DNA of 47,347 bases from positions 41,362-88,708 of the forward strand of contig PFCB01000030.1 in NCBI GenBank assembly GCA_002773135.1. Direction: 5' to 3'. The DNA comes from Candidatus Magasanikbacteria bacterium CG10_big_fil_rev_8_21_14_0_10_47_10. GTDB lineage: Bacteria; Patescibacteriota; Patescibacteriia; Magasanikbacterales; UBA922. The notes under the pieces are model-generated. The model saw only the letters and a program-made list of their open reading frames with translations. It did no database searches and had not been told where the DNA came from. Positions 3,368 through 16,550 of the stretch are shown here, piece by piece. Position 1 is the stretch's first letter. Every line of letters starts with the position of its first letter. The translations under genes and the position numbers were made by a program.

Positions 3368-3796
3368 CTACCAGGTTTTAGCATGCAAAATACCCGAAGA
3401 AAATAATCGTGTAAAAATATCACAAAAATATCGCCACCGCGCCCACCAATCTCGCACATACGCGCGCGCTGCCATGTCCCCCTGCATGCGAGTGGGCACA
3501 GCCAAAAAGATTAGGATGAAAGTAAAAAACGCGGCAAACGGCCCCGCGGCCTTTTCAGCAAGCGTGAAAACGATGTCTGTGTGATGCGCAATCTTATCAT
3601 TTGCATCCATATCAGTGCTCTCAGCACCGCCCTTGCAACACGCCGAATGTTCACTATTACTCGCAGCCGCCATGCTGGTATGCGCAGGATGGGGAAATAC
3701 CGTTGTCATTGTCATACCCAAACCGGCACCTGCGCAAGAATACAGCAATGCAACAAGGACAAAAAAGGCAATTTGTTGTTTTTTGACCCAGTTCAT
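3368..3796 (-). CDS. Small membrane protein rich in Met/His/Cys, possible metal-associated
   Basis: MTMTTVFPHPAHTSMAAASNSEHSACCKGG...HH between two TM segments; same strand as DUF411. Confidence 0.55.
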   Translation of the reverse strand: MNWVKKQQIAFFVLVALLYSCAGAGLGMTMTTVFPHPAHTSMAAASNSEHSACCKGGAESTDMDANDKIAHHTDIVFTLAEKAAGPFAAFFTFILIFLAVPTRMQGDMAARAYVRDWWARWRYFCDIFTRLFSSGILHAKTW

Positions 3797-3898
3797 ATAT
3801 ATTGAATGGTAGCATACTCATTGCTCCAACACAAGCCGCCCCCCTTCACAAAAGAGCGCTTTTATGATACGTTCACCCAAGAAAGTAATTCCACACAT

Positions 3899-4108
3899 AT
3901 GCACAGTACTTCACAAGAAACACAAAAGAGATACTCCCGGTATCTGCAATCACGCGAGCCTGTGAGCGATTTTTTTGTGACCGTATGGGAACATATGGAT
4001 AAAAAAGGACTCTTGTCCGGCCTTGACGACAGCGAGACGCTTGAGCACGTCGCGGCAACCGCGGAAAAAATTCTTAGTCAATCCAAAACTTCCCACAGCG
4101 TATCTTGA
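3899..4108 (+). CDS. Small hypothetical protein (69 aa)
   Basis: Internal ATG of the 3806-4108 ORF; acidic helical-looking sequence MHSTSQETQKRYSRYLQSREPVSDFFVTVWEHMDKKGL. Confidence 0.45.
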   Translation: MHSTSQETQKRYSRYLQSREPVSDFFVTVWEHMDKKGLLSGLDDSETLEHVAATAEKILSQSKTSHSVS

Positions 4109-4133
4109 CGCATAATAGACCCAGGCGTATACT
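4105..4133 (+). promoter_or_regulatory. Sigma70-type promoter
   Basis: TTGACG-N17-TATACT. Confidence 0.65.
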
Positions 4134-4220
4134 ATTGCCTGGTTGAACTTCTCGCCTGTTGTCGGGTGCCGGCACCACGCGAGGAGTCTAGCGAGCGCAG
4201 GGGCGCTCAGGGAGAGCATC

Positions 4221-4304
4221 ATGCTACTGAAGGGAACGGTCGTTTTCTTCGGAACCCTCGTGATCTCGGTGGGCTACGGTCTGCTGATCATGTGGGGTTC
4301 GTGA
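4221..4304 (+). CDS. 27-aa hydrophobic peptide MLLKGTVVFFGTLVISVGYGLLIMWGS
   Basis: ATG preceded by GGGAG about 6 nt upstream; single predicted TM helix; GC3 20/26 codons, unlike the surroundings. Confidence 0.5.
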   Translation: MLLKGTVVFFGTLVISVGYGLLIMWGS

Positions 4305-4396
4305 CCTCAACCACTATCGGACCCACCCGGCGCGGGCGACATCGCATTTCTGCGGAGTTGCTCGCGCCGGTCACGGGTCCGCGAAAAGAAACTATT

Positions 4397-4422
4397 AAAA
4401 AGCCCTCATGGGGCGTTTTTTT
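4397..4422 (+). terminator. Intrinsic terminator
   Basis: AAAAAGCCC-TCATG-GGGCGTTTTTTT. Confidence 0.7.
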
Positions 4423-4499
4423 ATTTTTATAAATCGTTGCAGTATTTTCAAATACTGCTTTTCACTGTATCTTAGAAGGATAACGCGCTAAAAAAAAGT

Positions 4500-5630
4500 A
4501 TGGGATTTCCAAACATTATCATTGTTGGTGGCGGACTAAACGGCCTCGGCTGCGCCAAACGGCTTACGGAAAAAGGCGTGCCATTTACCCTGATCACAGA
4601 AAATATAGGAGGACGGGTAAAAATGTCGCCGGACGGAGAAACAAACTACGGCGCGTACTATATTACCGCGGACTGCCACACCATCATGCCCTATATAAAA
4701 AAAATGAACCTGGTGCATTTTGCAAAGGCGCACTTTCACCAGGGAAAAAAGCAGTACCGCGTCTATTCTTTCCGGATGATAAAACATATTCCGGCCGCGA
4801 TCCGTTTATTGATTGAGATATTCCGATTTCGTCATCACGTCCAAAAAATCCGCAAGCAGGCATTCCACACGGCCTATCGTGACCTGATAGAAAGTGATCC
4901 CTATCTAAAAAAATATTATCATCAAAAAGCAGGCGTTTTTATCAAACAGCACGGCCTGGAAAATTTTACCAAAGAATATCTGGAGCAATTTTTATGGGCA
5001 GCCTATTTTACTGATCCAAGAGAGGTCTCAACCAGCATTTTTCTTGGCGTACTGCTCACGCTGATTGTGCCAAGTTATTCTTTTGTCTTTCAATTTGACA
5101 AACTAATCGCGCCGTTTAAAAAACGCATCACATGTGACACCGTAACAGAAATCAGCCGCGGCCGCGACAAACGCTTTACGTTAAAAACAGCGTCCGGAAA
5201 AAGCCATCGGTGCGATATCTTGGTTCTTGCTACCCCCATGAACATCACCAATACGCTGGTTACGCCCCAAAAGATAAAAGGCGGCATAAATGTGAATTAT
5301 TATCACATTCGTGGCAAAATCAAAAAAAAATACGATGTAAAATGGTATAGTTTTTTCCCTATCAAAGATGAAGCGGTCATTTCGCGTGAAGCAAACGGCA
5401 CATATCTGTATTTTTACGGGCGCAAGGATCGTATTGTTCACTACTTTGACAGCTGGGAAGTGATTACAAAAGACGCGTGGCGCCCGGCGCTTTTTTTCTT
5501 GGGGGACGAGTATATTGACGAACAGCCGGAACCCAATTTATTTTTGGCAAATGACCACAATGTTCCCAGTACCGAAGACGCGTTTATCAATGGGCACTAC
5601 GTGGCGAATCTCATTCTTAAACAGCTTTAG
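4500..5630 (+). CDS. NAD(P)/FAD-dependent oxidoreductase
   Basis: N-terminal dinucleotide fold IIIVGGGLNGLGCAKRLTEKGVPFTLITENIGGRV. Confidence 0.75.
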   Translation: MGFPNIIIVGGGLNGLGCAKRLTEKGVPFTLITENIGGRVKMSPDGETNYGAYYITADCHTIMPYIKKMNLVHFAKAHFHQGKKQYRVYSFRMIKHIPAAIRLLIEIFRFRHHVQKIRKQAFHTAYRDLIESDPYLKKYYHQKAGVFIKQHGLENFTKEYLEQFLWAAYFTDPREVSTSIFLGVLLTLIVPSYSFVFQFDKLIAPFKKRITCDTVTEISRGRDKRFTLKTASGKSHRCDILVLATPMNITNTLVTPQKIKGGINVNYYHIRGKIKKKYDVKWYSFFPIKDEAVISREANGTYLYFYGRKDRIVHYFDSWEVITKDAWRPALFFLGDEYIDEQPEPNLFLANDHNVPSTEDAFINGHYVANLILKQL

Positions 5631-9058: not shown

Positions 9059-10357
9059 TTATGCTGTTCTACGGTGACCGCCCCCACTTCGCCCTCCTGG
9101 GGAACGACGTGCTTTAAATGGGGCTGGTCTTCCTCCCTGCCCGCGACTACTACCACGATTTCCGCCACGATAACCACCACCTCTGCGAGCAAATACCGGA
9201 GGCTCTTCGTAGGCAGGCTTTTCGCGCTCCGGCGGCAGTTCAGGCACAGACAAGATCGGCAATGACTTACGAATCAGTCGCTCAATCTTTTTGATATCAG
9301 CCTTCTCGGATGGCGTGACAAAAGAGATGGCTTTTCCAAACCGTCCCGCACGACCGGTGCGTCCAATTCGATGAACATAATCTTCCGAATTATCCGGCAA
9401 ATCAAAATTTAAAACAATTGAAATATCTTTTACATCAATACCGCGTGCCGCAATATCCGTTGCCACCATGGTACGAAATTTTCCACGAGTGAATCCGTCC
9501 AGTGCCGCTTTTCTCTGTGGTTGAGAACGATTTCCATGGATTTCGGTCGCTGTGTGTCCCATGTTGCGAATATCTCGCGCAATGCGTTTTGCCCCATGTT
9601 TGGTTCGTGAAAAAATGAGAATCTTTTCATGTTCATACTTTTGAAGCAACGAATCGAGCAAACGCATTTTATCATTTTTTCGAACGACAAATACTTCCTG
9701 CTCCACGTTTTCTGCGGATGTTCCCTGCGGCGCAATTTCAATCCGTAGCGGCATTTTCATAAACTGGCTGGCCAGTGATGAAATCGACTGCGGCATTGTG
9801 GCGGAAAACAACATAGTCTGTCGCTCTTTTGGTGCCTTTTGCAAAATAAGTTTTATTTGTGGCAAAAATCCCACATCAAGCATTCTATCCGCTTCATCAA
9901 GCGTAATCATGCGAACATGATCAAGAGAAAAAGCTCTCTGCTTCATAAGGTCAGCCAAACGTCCGGGTGTCGCAATCACAATGTGAGGCTTTGCCTTTAA
10001 GGCGCGGACCTGCGGATGTTGAGACGTACCGCCAATAATCACTGCCAAGCGCAGGCCAAGTGCGCCTCCAACTTGCTTCAGTGCCTGCTCAACCTGCAAC
10101 GCAAGTTCTCGCGTGGGGACCAAAATCAGTCCCTGCCCCTTGTGCACGGCCAGGCGCTGAATCATTGGGATACCAAACGCCAAGGTTTTTCCCGTCCCTG
10201 TCTGGGCAATCCCTACGATGTCTTTTCCTTCCAACGCGTCCGGAATAACCTGATGTTGTATGGGCGTGGGCGTATCAAATCCATTCTTCTCCAAAAGAGC
10301 CAAGAAATTGGCCTTTATCCCAAGGTCGCGAAAGCGACCGGTGTGTGACTGTGTCAT
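9059..10357 (-). CDS. DEAD-box RNA helicase
   Basis: AQTGTGKT, PTRELALQ, DEAD, SAT, ARGID, HRIGRTGRAG motifs; start placed at MTQSHTG, alternative ATG at 10396. Confidence 0.93.
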   Translation of the reverse strand: MTQSHTGRFRDLGIKANFLALLEKNGFDTPTPIQHQVIPDALEGKDIVGIAQTGTGKTLAFGIPMIQRLAVHKGQGLILVPTRELALQVEQALKQVGGALGLRLAVIIGGTSQHPQVRALKAKPHIVIATPGRLADLMKQRAFSLDHVRMITLDEADRMLDVGFLPQIKLILQKAPKERQTMLFSATMPQSISSLASQFMKMPLRIEIAPQGTSAENVEQEVFVVRKNDKMRLLDSLLQKYEHEKILIFSRTKHGAKRIARDIRNMGHTATEIHGNRSQPQRKAALDGFTRGKFRTMVATDIAARGIDVKDISIVLNFDLPDNSEDYVHRIGRTGRAGRFGKAISFVTPSEKADIKKIERLIRKSLPILSVPELPPEREKPAYEEPPVFARRGGGYRGGNRGSSRGQGGRPAPFKARRSPGGRSGGGHRRTA

Positions 10358-10362
10358 AAAAA

Positions 10363-10397
10363 AATGTGTGACCCGATGTTCTTGAAGGTCACACATT
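10363..10397 (-). promoter_or_regulatory. Terminator-like leader hairpin abutting the helicase start codon
   Basis: Perfect 11-bp stem AATGTGTGACC/GGTCACACATT followed by a T-run then ATG at 10357. Confidence 0.6.
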
Positions 10398-10454
10398 GAC
10401 ACAAAAAAGATTCGAGTCTCTCGGCGAATACAGCCGAGGATAAATGAATACGCC

Positions 10455-10483
10455 ACTATAGCAGAAAATGGCGATTTTGTCAA
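10455..10483 (-). promoter_or_regulatory. Sigma70-type promoter of the helicase gene
   Basis: TTGACA-N17-TATAGT on minus strand. Confidence 0.75.
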
Positions 10484-10585
10484 GAGACGATGCAATTTGG
10501 TGCTCTTGAAACAACAGACCAACCCATATACAATGAAGAAGCGACAGTATGGACATGTTACTCGAAACCATGTGATAAAAGTCTT

Positions 10586-11878
10586 ATGGAAAAAAAACGC
10601 ATCGCGGTTATTGGGGCGGGAATCGCTGGCCTTACATGCGCCTATGAACTGCACAAAGCCGGACATAACGTTGTTGTATTTGAAAAAGAATCGTATGTTG
10701 GCGGAAGGATGTCTACCAGAATAAAGGATGAATTTCCAATGGATACAGGCGCAAATCATCTGGCGAATGTGTACCACCACATGAGAGATCTTGTGGACGA
10801 ACTTCATCTTGAATGGGAGCCAATGAAATTTTTAAATTATCGCATTATAAAAGATGGGATGCCTGTCGGTCTTCTTGATACCATGGGGAGACTGGATAAC
10901 ATACGCCTCGCCTTCCAAGCATTCATTGGAAAACGGAGAAAAACGGATTTTTTCAACCTCTCCACTGCCGTCAAGTACGATACAGATAATGTTGAACATT
11001 TCACGCGCAAATACATGGGCAGTCGCGCATTTAAATATCTGATAGATCCTTTTGTCAGTGTGTATCAATTTCATCGCGGAGGCGACCTCAGTCTGGGCAC
11101 CATGTATGCCATGATTGAATCACAATACAACCACACAGAAGATTGGAAGCTTTCTCAAATCAAAGGAGGCATGATTGCGCTACCGCAGGCACTGGCAGAC
11201 ACACTTGATACGCGGCTGAATACGCCGGTAACCAACGTAGCTGTTCACGAACAGAACAGCCTCACCGTCGCGACCAAGGATGGAGTGGAAACAGTGGACA
11301 TTGTGGTGTCTGCCGCCACAGCCGATGTCACAAAAAAAATATACCCGAAAGCATCACCCGGGCAACGGGCAGTGCTTGATGGTACCGAATACGCGTCAAC
11401 ACTTGCCGTCGCACTGAAAGTCCCAAAAGATCTTTTGGGAGACACAACGATTGTATGGGTTCCCTATGTGGAAGGTAGCGCCATTTCCGGCTACACAAAT
11501 GAAGCAATGAAAGGCGATGATCTCATTCATAATGGCAAAACGCTCCTTCTTGTCTGGTTTCACGAAACCTTTGCAAAAACGATGATGGACAAAACAGATG
11601 AAGAAATATATGAGATTGCCCAAAAAGAACTGATCAAGGTCTGCCCGGCCATTACGGACAAATCATTGCTAGAAAATCACGACATCCAGCGATGGCCGCA
11701 GGCCATGCCAAAATTTTCAGCAGGGCACCTTTCACGCGTTGAGGTATTTTTAAAAAAGCATCAGGGAGAAAACAATGTATTTTTTTGTGGCGACTACCTG
11801 AATGCTCCTTGGACAGAAGGCGCGCTTCAACAAGGGCAGCGCGTGGCCAAGGAAATTATCGCGAAAATCGAGGGATAG
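10586..11878 (+). CDS. FAD-dependent oxidoreductase, amine oxidase / phytoene desaturase / protoporphyrinogen-oxidase-like
   Basis: RIAVIGAGIAGLTCAYELHKAGHNVVVFEKESYVGGRM and C-terminal VFFCGDYLNAPWTEGALQQGQRVAKEI. Confidence 0.85.
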   Translation: MEKKRIAVIGAGIAGLTCAYELHKAGHNVVVFEKESYVGGRMSTRIKDEFPMDTGANHLANVYHHMRDLVDELHLEWEPMKFLNYRIIKDGMPVGLLDTMGRLDNIRLAFQAFIGKRRKTDFFNLSTAVKYDTDNVEHFTRKYMGSRAFKYLIDPFVSVYQFHRGGDLSLGTMYAMIESQYNHTEDWKLSQIKGGMIALPQALADTLDTRLNTPVTNVAVHEQNSLTVATKDGVETVDIVVSAATADVTKKIYPKASPGQRAVLDGTEYASTLAVALKVPKDLLGDTTIVWVPYVEGSAISGYTNEAMKGDDLIHNGKTLLLVWFHETFAKTMMDKTDEEIYEIAQKELIKVCPAITDKSLLENHDIQRWPQAMPKFSAGHLSRVEVFLKKHQGENNVFFCGDYLNAPWTEGALQQGQRVAKEIIAKIEG

Positions 11879-13535
11879 GAGAAGTGGGAAGAGCGGCAAT
11901 CAATTCATCATCTGACGCAAGGTTCTTTGGATCAATAAAAGTATCCCCTGTTATGTCCATGTACAGCTGCGTGCCCGTGTGCAGGGTGCCTGCGATTCCC
12001 GCGTATCCGCTAGATGCATTGCACCACCAAAAATTTGGCCATGGCGTAGGCGCTTTTAAGCGACCAAGACCCATTTGCTTGGGTGTCATAGTAGAACCAT
12101 AGGCATTCCCCATTGGCGCCATACAAAAATCTTCATTCGTTGTCGGGGATCCAATTTGCTTCACCACTATGTGTTTGCGCAGATCCGGGACATATTTTTG
12201 TTCAATAATATCCAATAACCTATTTGCCATTTTTTGTTTCAGCTTCATATACTCCACATAGCTTGTGTCGTACGCATCTTTAAACGGCTGGTATCCCATA
12301 AAGGAAGCAATCTCCAAAATTTGACCGCCCTCGGCCGGGACAGTACCGGGCTCATTTGAATGAAGCGACGGCGTGGACATAAAAAACCAAGGCTTCTCAA
12401 AATTAAGATCTTTTTGCTGACGCCACATCTTGTTCATGTCCCAATCCTCCAAGTGCCATATATTAAATTTACCAAATCCGTACTCTCGGAGGTCAATACT
12501 ATTATCCAGGCCCAAATATATCATGAGACCTGTCATGGAATATTCGTAATCGAGCTTTTTTTGTTCGCGTGCGGGAAATTTATCCCAACCAATCAATTTT
12601 TTTGCCGCGAGCTGGGGATCCATATTGCAGATAAACCCTTTTTTCGCTGTAAATATTTTTCCATCTTTGGTTTCTACACTTGAAACACGATCCCCTTCCA
12701 CATTCACCTTTGTTGCCTCAGTTTCATAGTATATATGACATCCGGGTTTTTCGGTTATACAATTCACCAACCCCTCAATATATCCCTTAAAATGTTTTGT
12801 CGGATAGTACGCGCCCGTATTATATCCTCCAAATAGCCCAACATAGCTAAAGATGGATAATCTGCCCGGTGGTTCCCCCATGTCGCCGGAATTGGCAATC
12901 AGCACTGCCTGCGCTTCTTTTGATAAGCCACACTCGTCAAACACATCTTGCAATGTTTTCGCGCGATATTTCAACATTCCTCTCAATTGTAGGGCATACA
13001 GTGGAAACTGCCACCATGCAATTTTTCCGGTTGGAAACGCGCGCATTTCTTCTCGAAGACGAGCAAGAATACCGGTAAACTGTTCAACGTGCTTTTTTTG
13101 ACCGGGATACGCCGCATCAATATTTTGTGCGAGCTTGTCCCACCCATACGGAATTTTTACGCGTTTGCCATCCGGCATCACCATATGATCATATCCCGCC
13201 GGATCATATAAATTCCACGACAATTCTTTTTCAAGGCCTATTTTTTTCAAAAATTCCCACATGACTGCTCCTTTGCCACAACTCCATGTATAATGAATTT
13301 GCGCGCAAAAATGAAAATCCCCCGCGCGAAACGTATGCGCATACCCGCCGGGGACATCATGATATTCAAGCATACAAATTGTATTGCCGGCATTTGCCAA
13401 AAGTGAGCCAGCCACCAAGGCGGAATGCCCCGATCCGATGATTACGTAATCATATTCATGTCCCTGCGCGTACCGCTCATCTTGCGCGGCGTGCTGTTCT
13501 TTTGTGAGAGCCCCCGTGCTTGTTCGTTTGGCCAT
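11856..13535 (-). CDS. CrtI-family/retinol-saturase-like FAD oxidoreductase
   Basis: YDYVIIGSGHSALVAGSLLANAGNTICMLEYHDVPGGYAHTF and C-terminal GIAGTLHTGTQLYMDI. Confidence 0.8.
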   Translation of the reverse strand: MAKRTSTGALTKEQHAAQDERYAQGHEYDYVIIGSGHSALVAGSLLANAGNTICMLEYHDVPGGYAHTFRAGDFHFCAQIHYTWSCGKGAVMWEFLKKIGLEKELSWNLYDPAGYDHMVMPDGKRVKIPYGWDKLAQNIDAAYPGQKKHVEQFTGILARLREEMRAFPTGKIAWWQFPLYALQLRGMLKYRAKTLQDVFDECGLSKEAQAVLIANSGDMGEPPGRLSIFSYVGLFGGYNTGAYYPTKHFKGYIEGLVNCITEKPGCHIYYETEATKVNVEGDRVSSVETKDGKIFTAKKGFICNMDPQLAAKKLIGWDKFPAREQKKLDYEYSMTGLMIYLGLDNSIDLREYGFGKFNIWHLEDWDMNKMWRQQKDLNFEKPWFFMSTPSLHSNEPGTVPAEGGQILEIASFMGYQPFKDAYDTSYVEYMKLKQKMANRLLDIIEQKYVPDLRKHIVVKQIGSPTTNEDFCMAPMGNAYGSTMTPKQMGLGRLKAPTPWPNFWWCNASSGYAGIAGTLHTGTQLYMDITGDTFIDPKNLASDDELIAALPTSPIPRFSR

Positions 13536-15659: not shown

Positions 15660-16496
15660 TTACAGGTTCTGGCCCACCTCGCGGACGATCGATGTGACCA
15701 ACCGTCCGAACGGCTCCTTCATGCCATCAACGACCTGCACGACCCCCTCGTGGCTGATCGGCAGCAGAGAACCCATGCCCGCCCCCATGTTCGTGACCAA
15801 GGCGAGGTCCAGCACCTTCGCCCCCATCTGGGCCGCAGCGATGACCTCGGGAACGGTGGACATGGTTGCCACGTCAGCGCCCATGCGCGCCATGGCCTCG
15901 ACCTCGGCAACCGTCTCGTAGGTGCGCCCCATCTTGAAGGCCGACACACCCCAATGGAAGGAGACCCCTTCGTCCAGCGCGCACCGCTTGGCGATCCGCA
16001 AGAAGTGCGGGTCGAAGACCTCCTCCATGGGCGAGAACTCCACGCCGAGCTCCGGAATCCCCGGGCCACTCGTGGGGTCGGGGCAGTTGAGCCCCAGCTG
16101 CGAACGAATCCCCACGATGTCGCCGGGCTCCAAGTTCCGCGTCACCGCCCCGGTTGCGTGCGTGATGATGAGTCGCTTCACGCCCAGTGTCACCATGAGC
16201 CGGGTGAGGAAGACCACCTCGTGGACCGTGTATCCCTCGTAGAGGTGGATTCGGCCCCGCAGCATGACCACAGGGACTCCCTCCAAGTAGCCCCAGACCA
16301 ACTGGCCGGCATGGCCGGTCACCCCCGGCACCTTGCAGTGTGGAATCTCATTGTAATCACAGAATACCGACTGCCCCACCAGGTTGGTCAGGTAGCCAAG
16401 CCCAGAGCCTAGCGTGATGGAAAACTTGGGGATGAAGTCCCCCATCATCTCCTTGACCGCCGCAGCAGCCTGATCGAGCTTTTCCTTCTCAGTCAA
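15660..16496 (-). CDS. punA: Purine-nucleoside phosphorylase
   Basis: TLGSGLG, GHAGQLVWGYLEGVPVVMLRGRIHLYEGY, MSTVPEVIAA; AAGGAG SD ahead of TTG start at 16496 (ORF extends to 16520). Confidence 0.88.
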   Translation of the reverse strand: MTEKEKLDQAAAAVKEMMGDFIPKFSITLGSGLGYLTNLVGQSVFCDYNEIPHCKVPGVTGHAGQLVWGYLEGVPVVMLRGRIHLYEGYTVHEVVFLTRLMVTLGVKRLIITHATGAVTRNLEPGDIVGIRSQLGLNCPDPTSGPGIPELGVEFSPMEEVFDPHFLRIAKRCALDEGVSFHWGVSAFKMGRTYETVAEVEAMARMGADVATMSTVPEVIAAAQMGAKVLDLALVTNMGAGMGSLLPISHEGVVQVVDGMKEPFGRLVTSIVREVGQNL

Positions 16497-16550
16497 TGTA
16501 CTCTCCTTGGGGCTGAGCAAACCCCGTCATTACGCTCAGTTGCTTATGCC

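Follow-up and report, generated by a model that had tools for sequence, protein, structure and literature searches.

What is encoded by the short GC-rich segment at 4131–4396 of the window, the 47,347-nucleotide stretch of a Candidatus Magasanikbacteria genome (G000) analyzed here? The first-pass annotation had described a compact transcription unit that could be a new structured RNA, a dual-function small RNA, or a small foreign gene. The segment is indeed GC-richer than its neighbors (0.60 GC, against 0.456 for the window), and direct reading located the promoter, the 27-codon ORF, the hairpin, and the terminator where they had been claimed. All the signals lie on the plus strand. The sigma-70-type promoter TTGACG-N17-TATACT occupies 4105–4133, with the −35 hexamer starting at 4105 and ending at 4110, a 17-nt spacer, and the −10 hexamer at 4128–4133. 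It matches 10 of 12 consensus positions and was the sole plus-strand promoter-like site found by the scan in 3700–4700. A sibling unit (L114:7899-) reuses both hexamers with the same spacer length. The 5' leader (4141–4209) contains the further upstream hairpins that had been noticed, which are real and pair 4147–4155 with 4179–4187 and 4193–4198 with 4203–4208. Its first bases, GGTTGA, are able to pair with TCAACC at 4307–4312, on the 3' side of the stop codon. By direct reading, a Shine–Dalgarno sequence, GGGAG (4210–4214), is followed 6 nt downstream by the ATG of a 27-codon ORF (4221–4304, ATG to TGA), which reads MLLKGTVVFFGTLVISVGYGLLIMWGS. The 3' UTR (4305–4390) holds a nested hairpin at 4318–4381, in which the outer stem, CGGACCC (4318–4324) with GGGTCCG (4375–4381), encloses a 14-bp stem and a CGCA-TTTC-TGCG cap. 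An intrinsic terminator, GCCCTCATGGGGC plus a T-run, at 4397–4422 was also found by an independent terminator scan, and a second terminator-like hairpin (4439–4458) follows shortly 3' of it.

The predicted transcript is highly structured. The 290 nt from 4136 to 4425 fold with −145 kcal/mol (z = −6.8), and none of 200 shuffles was equally stable. The 3' hairpin by itself reaches −50 kcal/mol (z = −7.1), and by part the z value goes from −2.8 in the 5' leader to −4.3 in the ORF and −6.3 in the 3' UTR. In a genome-wide survey of 6784 folds (250-nt stretches, both strands), the plus strand was 3.75 sd stabler than expected from the regression on GC, whereas the minus strand was 0.28 sd stabler. 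In this survey, the plus strand of the target ranks 16th in stability relative to GC content, and its minus strand is unremarkable. Such one-strand stability points to the structure of a transcript and not to a plain DNA palindrome. The best-folding stretches of the genome include several GC-rich islands of similar look. Another of the most stably folding stretches, L063:3770-4230, is promoter-driven and forms long nested hairpins without an obvious ORF; in it, ARAGORN found no tmRNA, and Rfam reported nothing.

The same segment bears the marks of a coding sequence. The 27-aa peptide is predicted to form a single transmembrane helix (best 19-residue Kyte–Doolittle mean, 2.1). Its codons have G or C in 14, 10, and 21 of 27 cases at the first, second, and third positions, respectively, giving a GC3 of 0.78. 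The GC periodicity (21/27 at the third position against 24/54 at the others; Fisher p = 0.004) is similar in sibling genes. The combination of a Shine–Dalgarno sequence, an ATG, and a hydrophobic ORF of 20–60 aa was retained in 0 of 2000 dinucleotide shuffles, by criteria set post hoc with the ORF already seen. Together with the hairpin and terminator, these features favor an mRNA over a non-coding RNA. Counting against the mRNA reading, the ORF region itself beats shuffles in folding (z = −4.3), as would likewise be expected of a non-coding RNA. The case for translation is built on composition and layout, because no peptide homologue was found in anything searched.

The anatomy, structure, and composition of the unit, as read from the sequence, also indicate that it belongs to a class. 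Counting the target, about twenty to forty GC-rich genes of this stand-alone kind are scattered across the genome (~1.04 Mb, 46.7% GC, 36 contigs), of which 1,036,240 of 1,043,962 bases were analyzed, the window included. Host ORFs center on GC3 values of 0.35–0.55, with a tail of genes at 0.73–0.97. The flanks of fifteen high-GC3 genes beside the target show a recurring plan: a sigma-70 promoter of the form TTGACA-N17-TAnnnT, a short 5' leader that often begins with a hairpin, a Shine–Dalgarno sequence, one mostly orphan ORF, a 3' UTR with a GC-rich hairpin, and then a T-run terminator. Among 17 units (the target included) picked by GC3 and not by promoter, some with start codons corrected by eye, 11 had a promoter matching 10 or more of 12 positions in the 300 nt upstream, compared with 21 of 169 host genes (p = 5e-6). 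The 3' regions of units are GC-richer than those of host genes (median 0.52 versus 0.44, p = 5e-7) and exceed them in structure for their composition (p = 4e-4); structured 3' ends also occur in some host genes (9 of 60 with z < −4). A promoter-first scan gave 282 sigma-70-like sites, of which 37, including some tRNA, RNase-P-like, or host genes, were followed by at least 0.55 GC over the next 200 nt; the target ranked seventh of the 282 by downstream GC. An automatic filter for a promoter, a Shine–Dalgarno sequence, and an ORF of at least 20 codons with GC3 at least 0.28 above genome GC returned 21 units in this genome, the target among them.

Most of these units carry clear, long ORFs. The 27-aa unit is among the smallest of the class, and its ORF is the shortest among the members examined, several of which were selected or start-corrected by eye. 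Small hydrophobic or membrane proteins are also encoded by L090 (65 aa), L105:4536- (83 aa), and L109:17212+ (67 aa), and L102:19300- (149 aa, with an N-terminal helix) is listed among them. Most of ten high-GC3 genes searched against Pfam had no family, the exceptions being a dUTPase, a histidine phosphatase, and a MopE-like protein. Ten sibling proteins had no PHROGs family except a dUTPase, and the L090 protein had no match in genome_contigs. The GC-rich gene at L117:14628-16841 encodes a 737-aa MopE-type repeat protein. The best plasmid matches of this protein come from Sandaracinus (Myxococcota), a hint of a high-GC donor. Within the window, a further unit of the class (15660–16502, minus strand) is purine-nucleoside-phosphorylase-like by eye, with a GC3 of 0.85, its own promoter, and a 5' hairpin. 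Members share no common sequence beyond weak motifs. In the 3' regions of high-GC3 genes of this genome, CCCACC occurs in 9 of 34 and CCAAGG in 7 of 34, counts reached by 0 of 300 dinucleotide shuffles for two motifs that were picked from many k-mers; the 3' UTR of the target carries the former as ACCCACC at 4321.

Here, we propose that the segment is probably not a non-coding RNA but an autonomous mini-gene with a single cistron, whose short mRNA would be bracketed by hairpins and encode a membrane peptide of one helix. Among the three original options, the small foreign gene is the best supported because its architecture and codon composition match those of the GC-rich single-gene units of the genome, and the new structured RNA did not pass the test of conservation described below. 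From these features we infer how the unit would be transcribed, translated, and protected as a message. The strong sigma-70 promoter would fire at ~4140 and yield an mRNA of ~280 nt ending at 4422. The hairpins of the leader, together with the highly stable nested one in the 3' UTR, would bracket this message and probably shield it from exonucleases, as would be expected from bacterial mRNA decay in general, and they would probably also isolate it from its neighbors. A ribosome binding at GGGAG would produce the 27-residue peptide, which would insert by its one helix into the cytoplasmic membrane. The most likely role of the predicted peptide is that of a small accessory modulator of a membrane protein. 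Like the remaining GC-rich orphan units of the genome, the unit was probably acquired whole from a GC-rich source. Reduced bacteria are thought to be streamlined, yet about twenty or more stand-alone units, mostly orphan, with a foreign composition and elaborate message ends, appear to be present in this genome. Should these units be expressed, they would directly provide candidates for accessory functions or for interaction with a host, including many small membrane proteins overlooked by annotation pipelines. They would also form a natural panel for studying how message lifetime depends on hairpins at the two ends.

The alternative that survives best, although we consider it unlikely, is a free-standing structured non-coding RNA, such as an sRNA, for which the 27-codon ORF would be incidental. 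The stability of the whole transcript (z = −6.8), ORF part included, and the position of the predicted transcription start, which falls on the first paired base of the fold, are consistent with it. The genome also offers a parallel at L105:4072 (minus strand), where the ~260 nt after a strong (11/12) promoter are GC-rich and heavily hairpinned, and no SD-preceded ORF of 20 codons was found in them. This region, directly downstream of the small membrane-protein unit L105:4536-, is possibly a true structured non-coding RNA. Against the non-coding reading of the target, the Shine–Dalgarno sequence, codon periodicity, and hydrophobicity are not expected by chance, and sibling units with the same hairpins bear long, unmistakable ORFs.

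Conservation in relatives, which had been anticipated for a new structured RNA together with Rfam and covariance searches as checks, was not borne out. Rfam contained no family matching the unit, either at the gathering level or at E ≤ 10, and the best sub-threshold matches were low-scoring miRNA models. A covariance model derived from this one sequence with its predicted fold found nothing convincing in 384 phylum genomes (one weak match, E 0.08, L060); in the genome of the target, it found the target itself, an overlapping antisense match (E 0.002), and one chance-level match. Among 95 relatives, the unit DNA had no homologue, just a 42-nt terminator-like match (L002), and the peptide had no convincing match in relatives. 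Homologues with compensatory base changes, the hallmark of a new conserved structured RNA class, were found neither in the 95 relatives nor in the 384 phylum genomes. Nothing meaningful was obtained with the unit DNA and peptide against phages and plasmids or with the peptide against Pfam, NCBIfam, PHROGs, and PDB, and the frame-extended peptide had no match in genome_contigs and viral_contigs. The viral contigs hold 17-mer matches to the unit, which are short for so large a collection. In the same genome, L083:about 1470-1900 resembles RNase P RNA by eye, with the GGAGGAAAGTCCGAACA motif after a 10/12 promoter and an AT-rich insertion. Rfam at the gathering level did not report this candidate, a warning on Rfam-negative results in this lineage.

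A type I toxin–antitoxin system, with a small hydrophobic toxin whose structured mRNA is silenced by an antisense RNA, is improbable. A small hydrophobic peptide, a structured mRNA, and a stable 3' end are typical of type I toxins, and the unit resembles the Hok, Ibs, and TisB types in its short hydrophobic peptide, preceded by a Shine–Dalgarno sequence, and in its structured mRNA and stable 3' end. No antisense RNA gene was recognized beside it: the only candidate antisense promoter is a weak, unconvincing 9/12 minus-strand match at 4451–4423, made of the A-run of the terminator. The unit is also single copy, and its layout is common to ordinary-sized soluble proteins, as same-layout siblings encode unrelated, mostly soluble proteins of up to 737 aa. 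The mini-gene product can also be compared with small membrane peptides of the CydX, KdpF, and AcrZ type, which modulate larger proteins and which it resembles in size (20–40 residues), in having one helix, and in being encoded by a tiny gene that is separate or at an operon end. It differs from them in that no similarity was found in Pfam, NCBIfam, PHROGs, or PDB and in that a recognized partner gene is not adjacent.

We give still less weight to a transcription attenuator, in which a 27-aa leader peptide and the terminator control the FAD-oxidoreductase gene at 4500. The order of leader peptide and terminator is as expected, and the gene follows in the same orientation after 77 nt, with no promoter of its own found by the scan; however, the predicted folds contain no visible competing antiterminator pairing, the peptide has no run of a single amino acid, a further terminator-like hairpin stands at 4439–4458, and in siblings the hairpin and terminator come after ORFs of any length. 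The 4500–5630 gene (Pfam Amino_oxidase), which had no homologue in 43 sampled relatives, is one of three FAD-dependent amine-oxidase/phytoene-desaturase-type oxidoreductase-like genes in the window, the others being at 10490–11878 and 11856–13535. A non-autonomous mobile element (IS200/IS605-type or integron cassette) with the hairpins as recombination sites can practically be dismissed: the GC-rich segment carries a palindrome close to each end, in surroundings that are otherwise ordinary, but it is single copy, lacks direct repeats of >12 nt, folds on one strand only, and has complete promoter-to-terminator gene signals. Repeated ends or recombination sites in multiple copies, as in integron cassettes and IS200/IS605 derivatives, were not found.

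Morons, the autonomous accessory genes that prophages carry, are recognized by their own promoter and terminator and by a composition differing from that of the flanking genes. In phages, they are independently transcribed, horizontally acquired elements (PMC6469090). The mini-gene resembles them in having one protein-coding gene with its own predicted promoter and terminator and a base composition unlike that of its neighbors (0.60 versus 0.456 GC), set between unrelated genes. In contrast to phage morons, the unit is chromosomal and does not reside in a prophage: ten neighboring ORFs are DUF1573, DUF411, FAD oxidoreductase, DUF2914, or DUF5652 proteins or have no Pfam family, and none is phage-like. 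The phage collection had no match to the unit. The units are also many per genome, uniformly GC-rich, and furnished with elaborate 5' and 3' hairpins. Thus, the unit may function in the manner of a moron, although it is not classed among them. More tentatively, it is conceivable that some lineages of the family, with reduced genomes of ~1 Mb, recurrently acquire autonomous GC-rich hairpin-bracketed orphan units as a chromosomal counterpart of morons, whose codons and hairpins would be kept for message stability or insulation. Literature searches for high-GC orphan units of Patescibacteria returned no work on this topic.

In other genera of the family, the automatic filter returned four units in 253 kb of G025 (39% GC), five in 91 kb of G013 (43.5% GC), and one in 182 kb of G031. 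Samples of 77–400 kb from G027, G002, G020, and G001 gave zero. The class thus appears patchy within the family, being clear in G025 and G013 and absent from the samples of four genera. Leader and 3' hairpins are present in the G025 and G013 units too, among them a 38-codon unit of G013 (L184:2631-). A sibling of the target (L077 family) has a homologue in G025 (31% identity within the matched region and 27% across the alignment), which is also a GC-rich island in an AT-richer contig; a wider search of 384 phylum genomes found this family in its own genome alone. In G013, a DEAD-box helicase gene is flanked by three GC-rich units (L184:455-3345), whereas the DEAD-box helicase gene of the window (9059–10807) has no recognized GC-rich unit beside it, which suggests gain or loss of units at related helicase loci.
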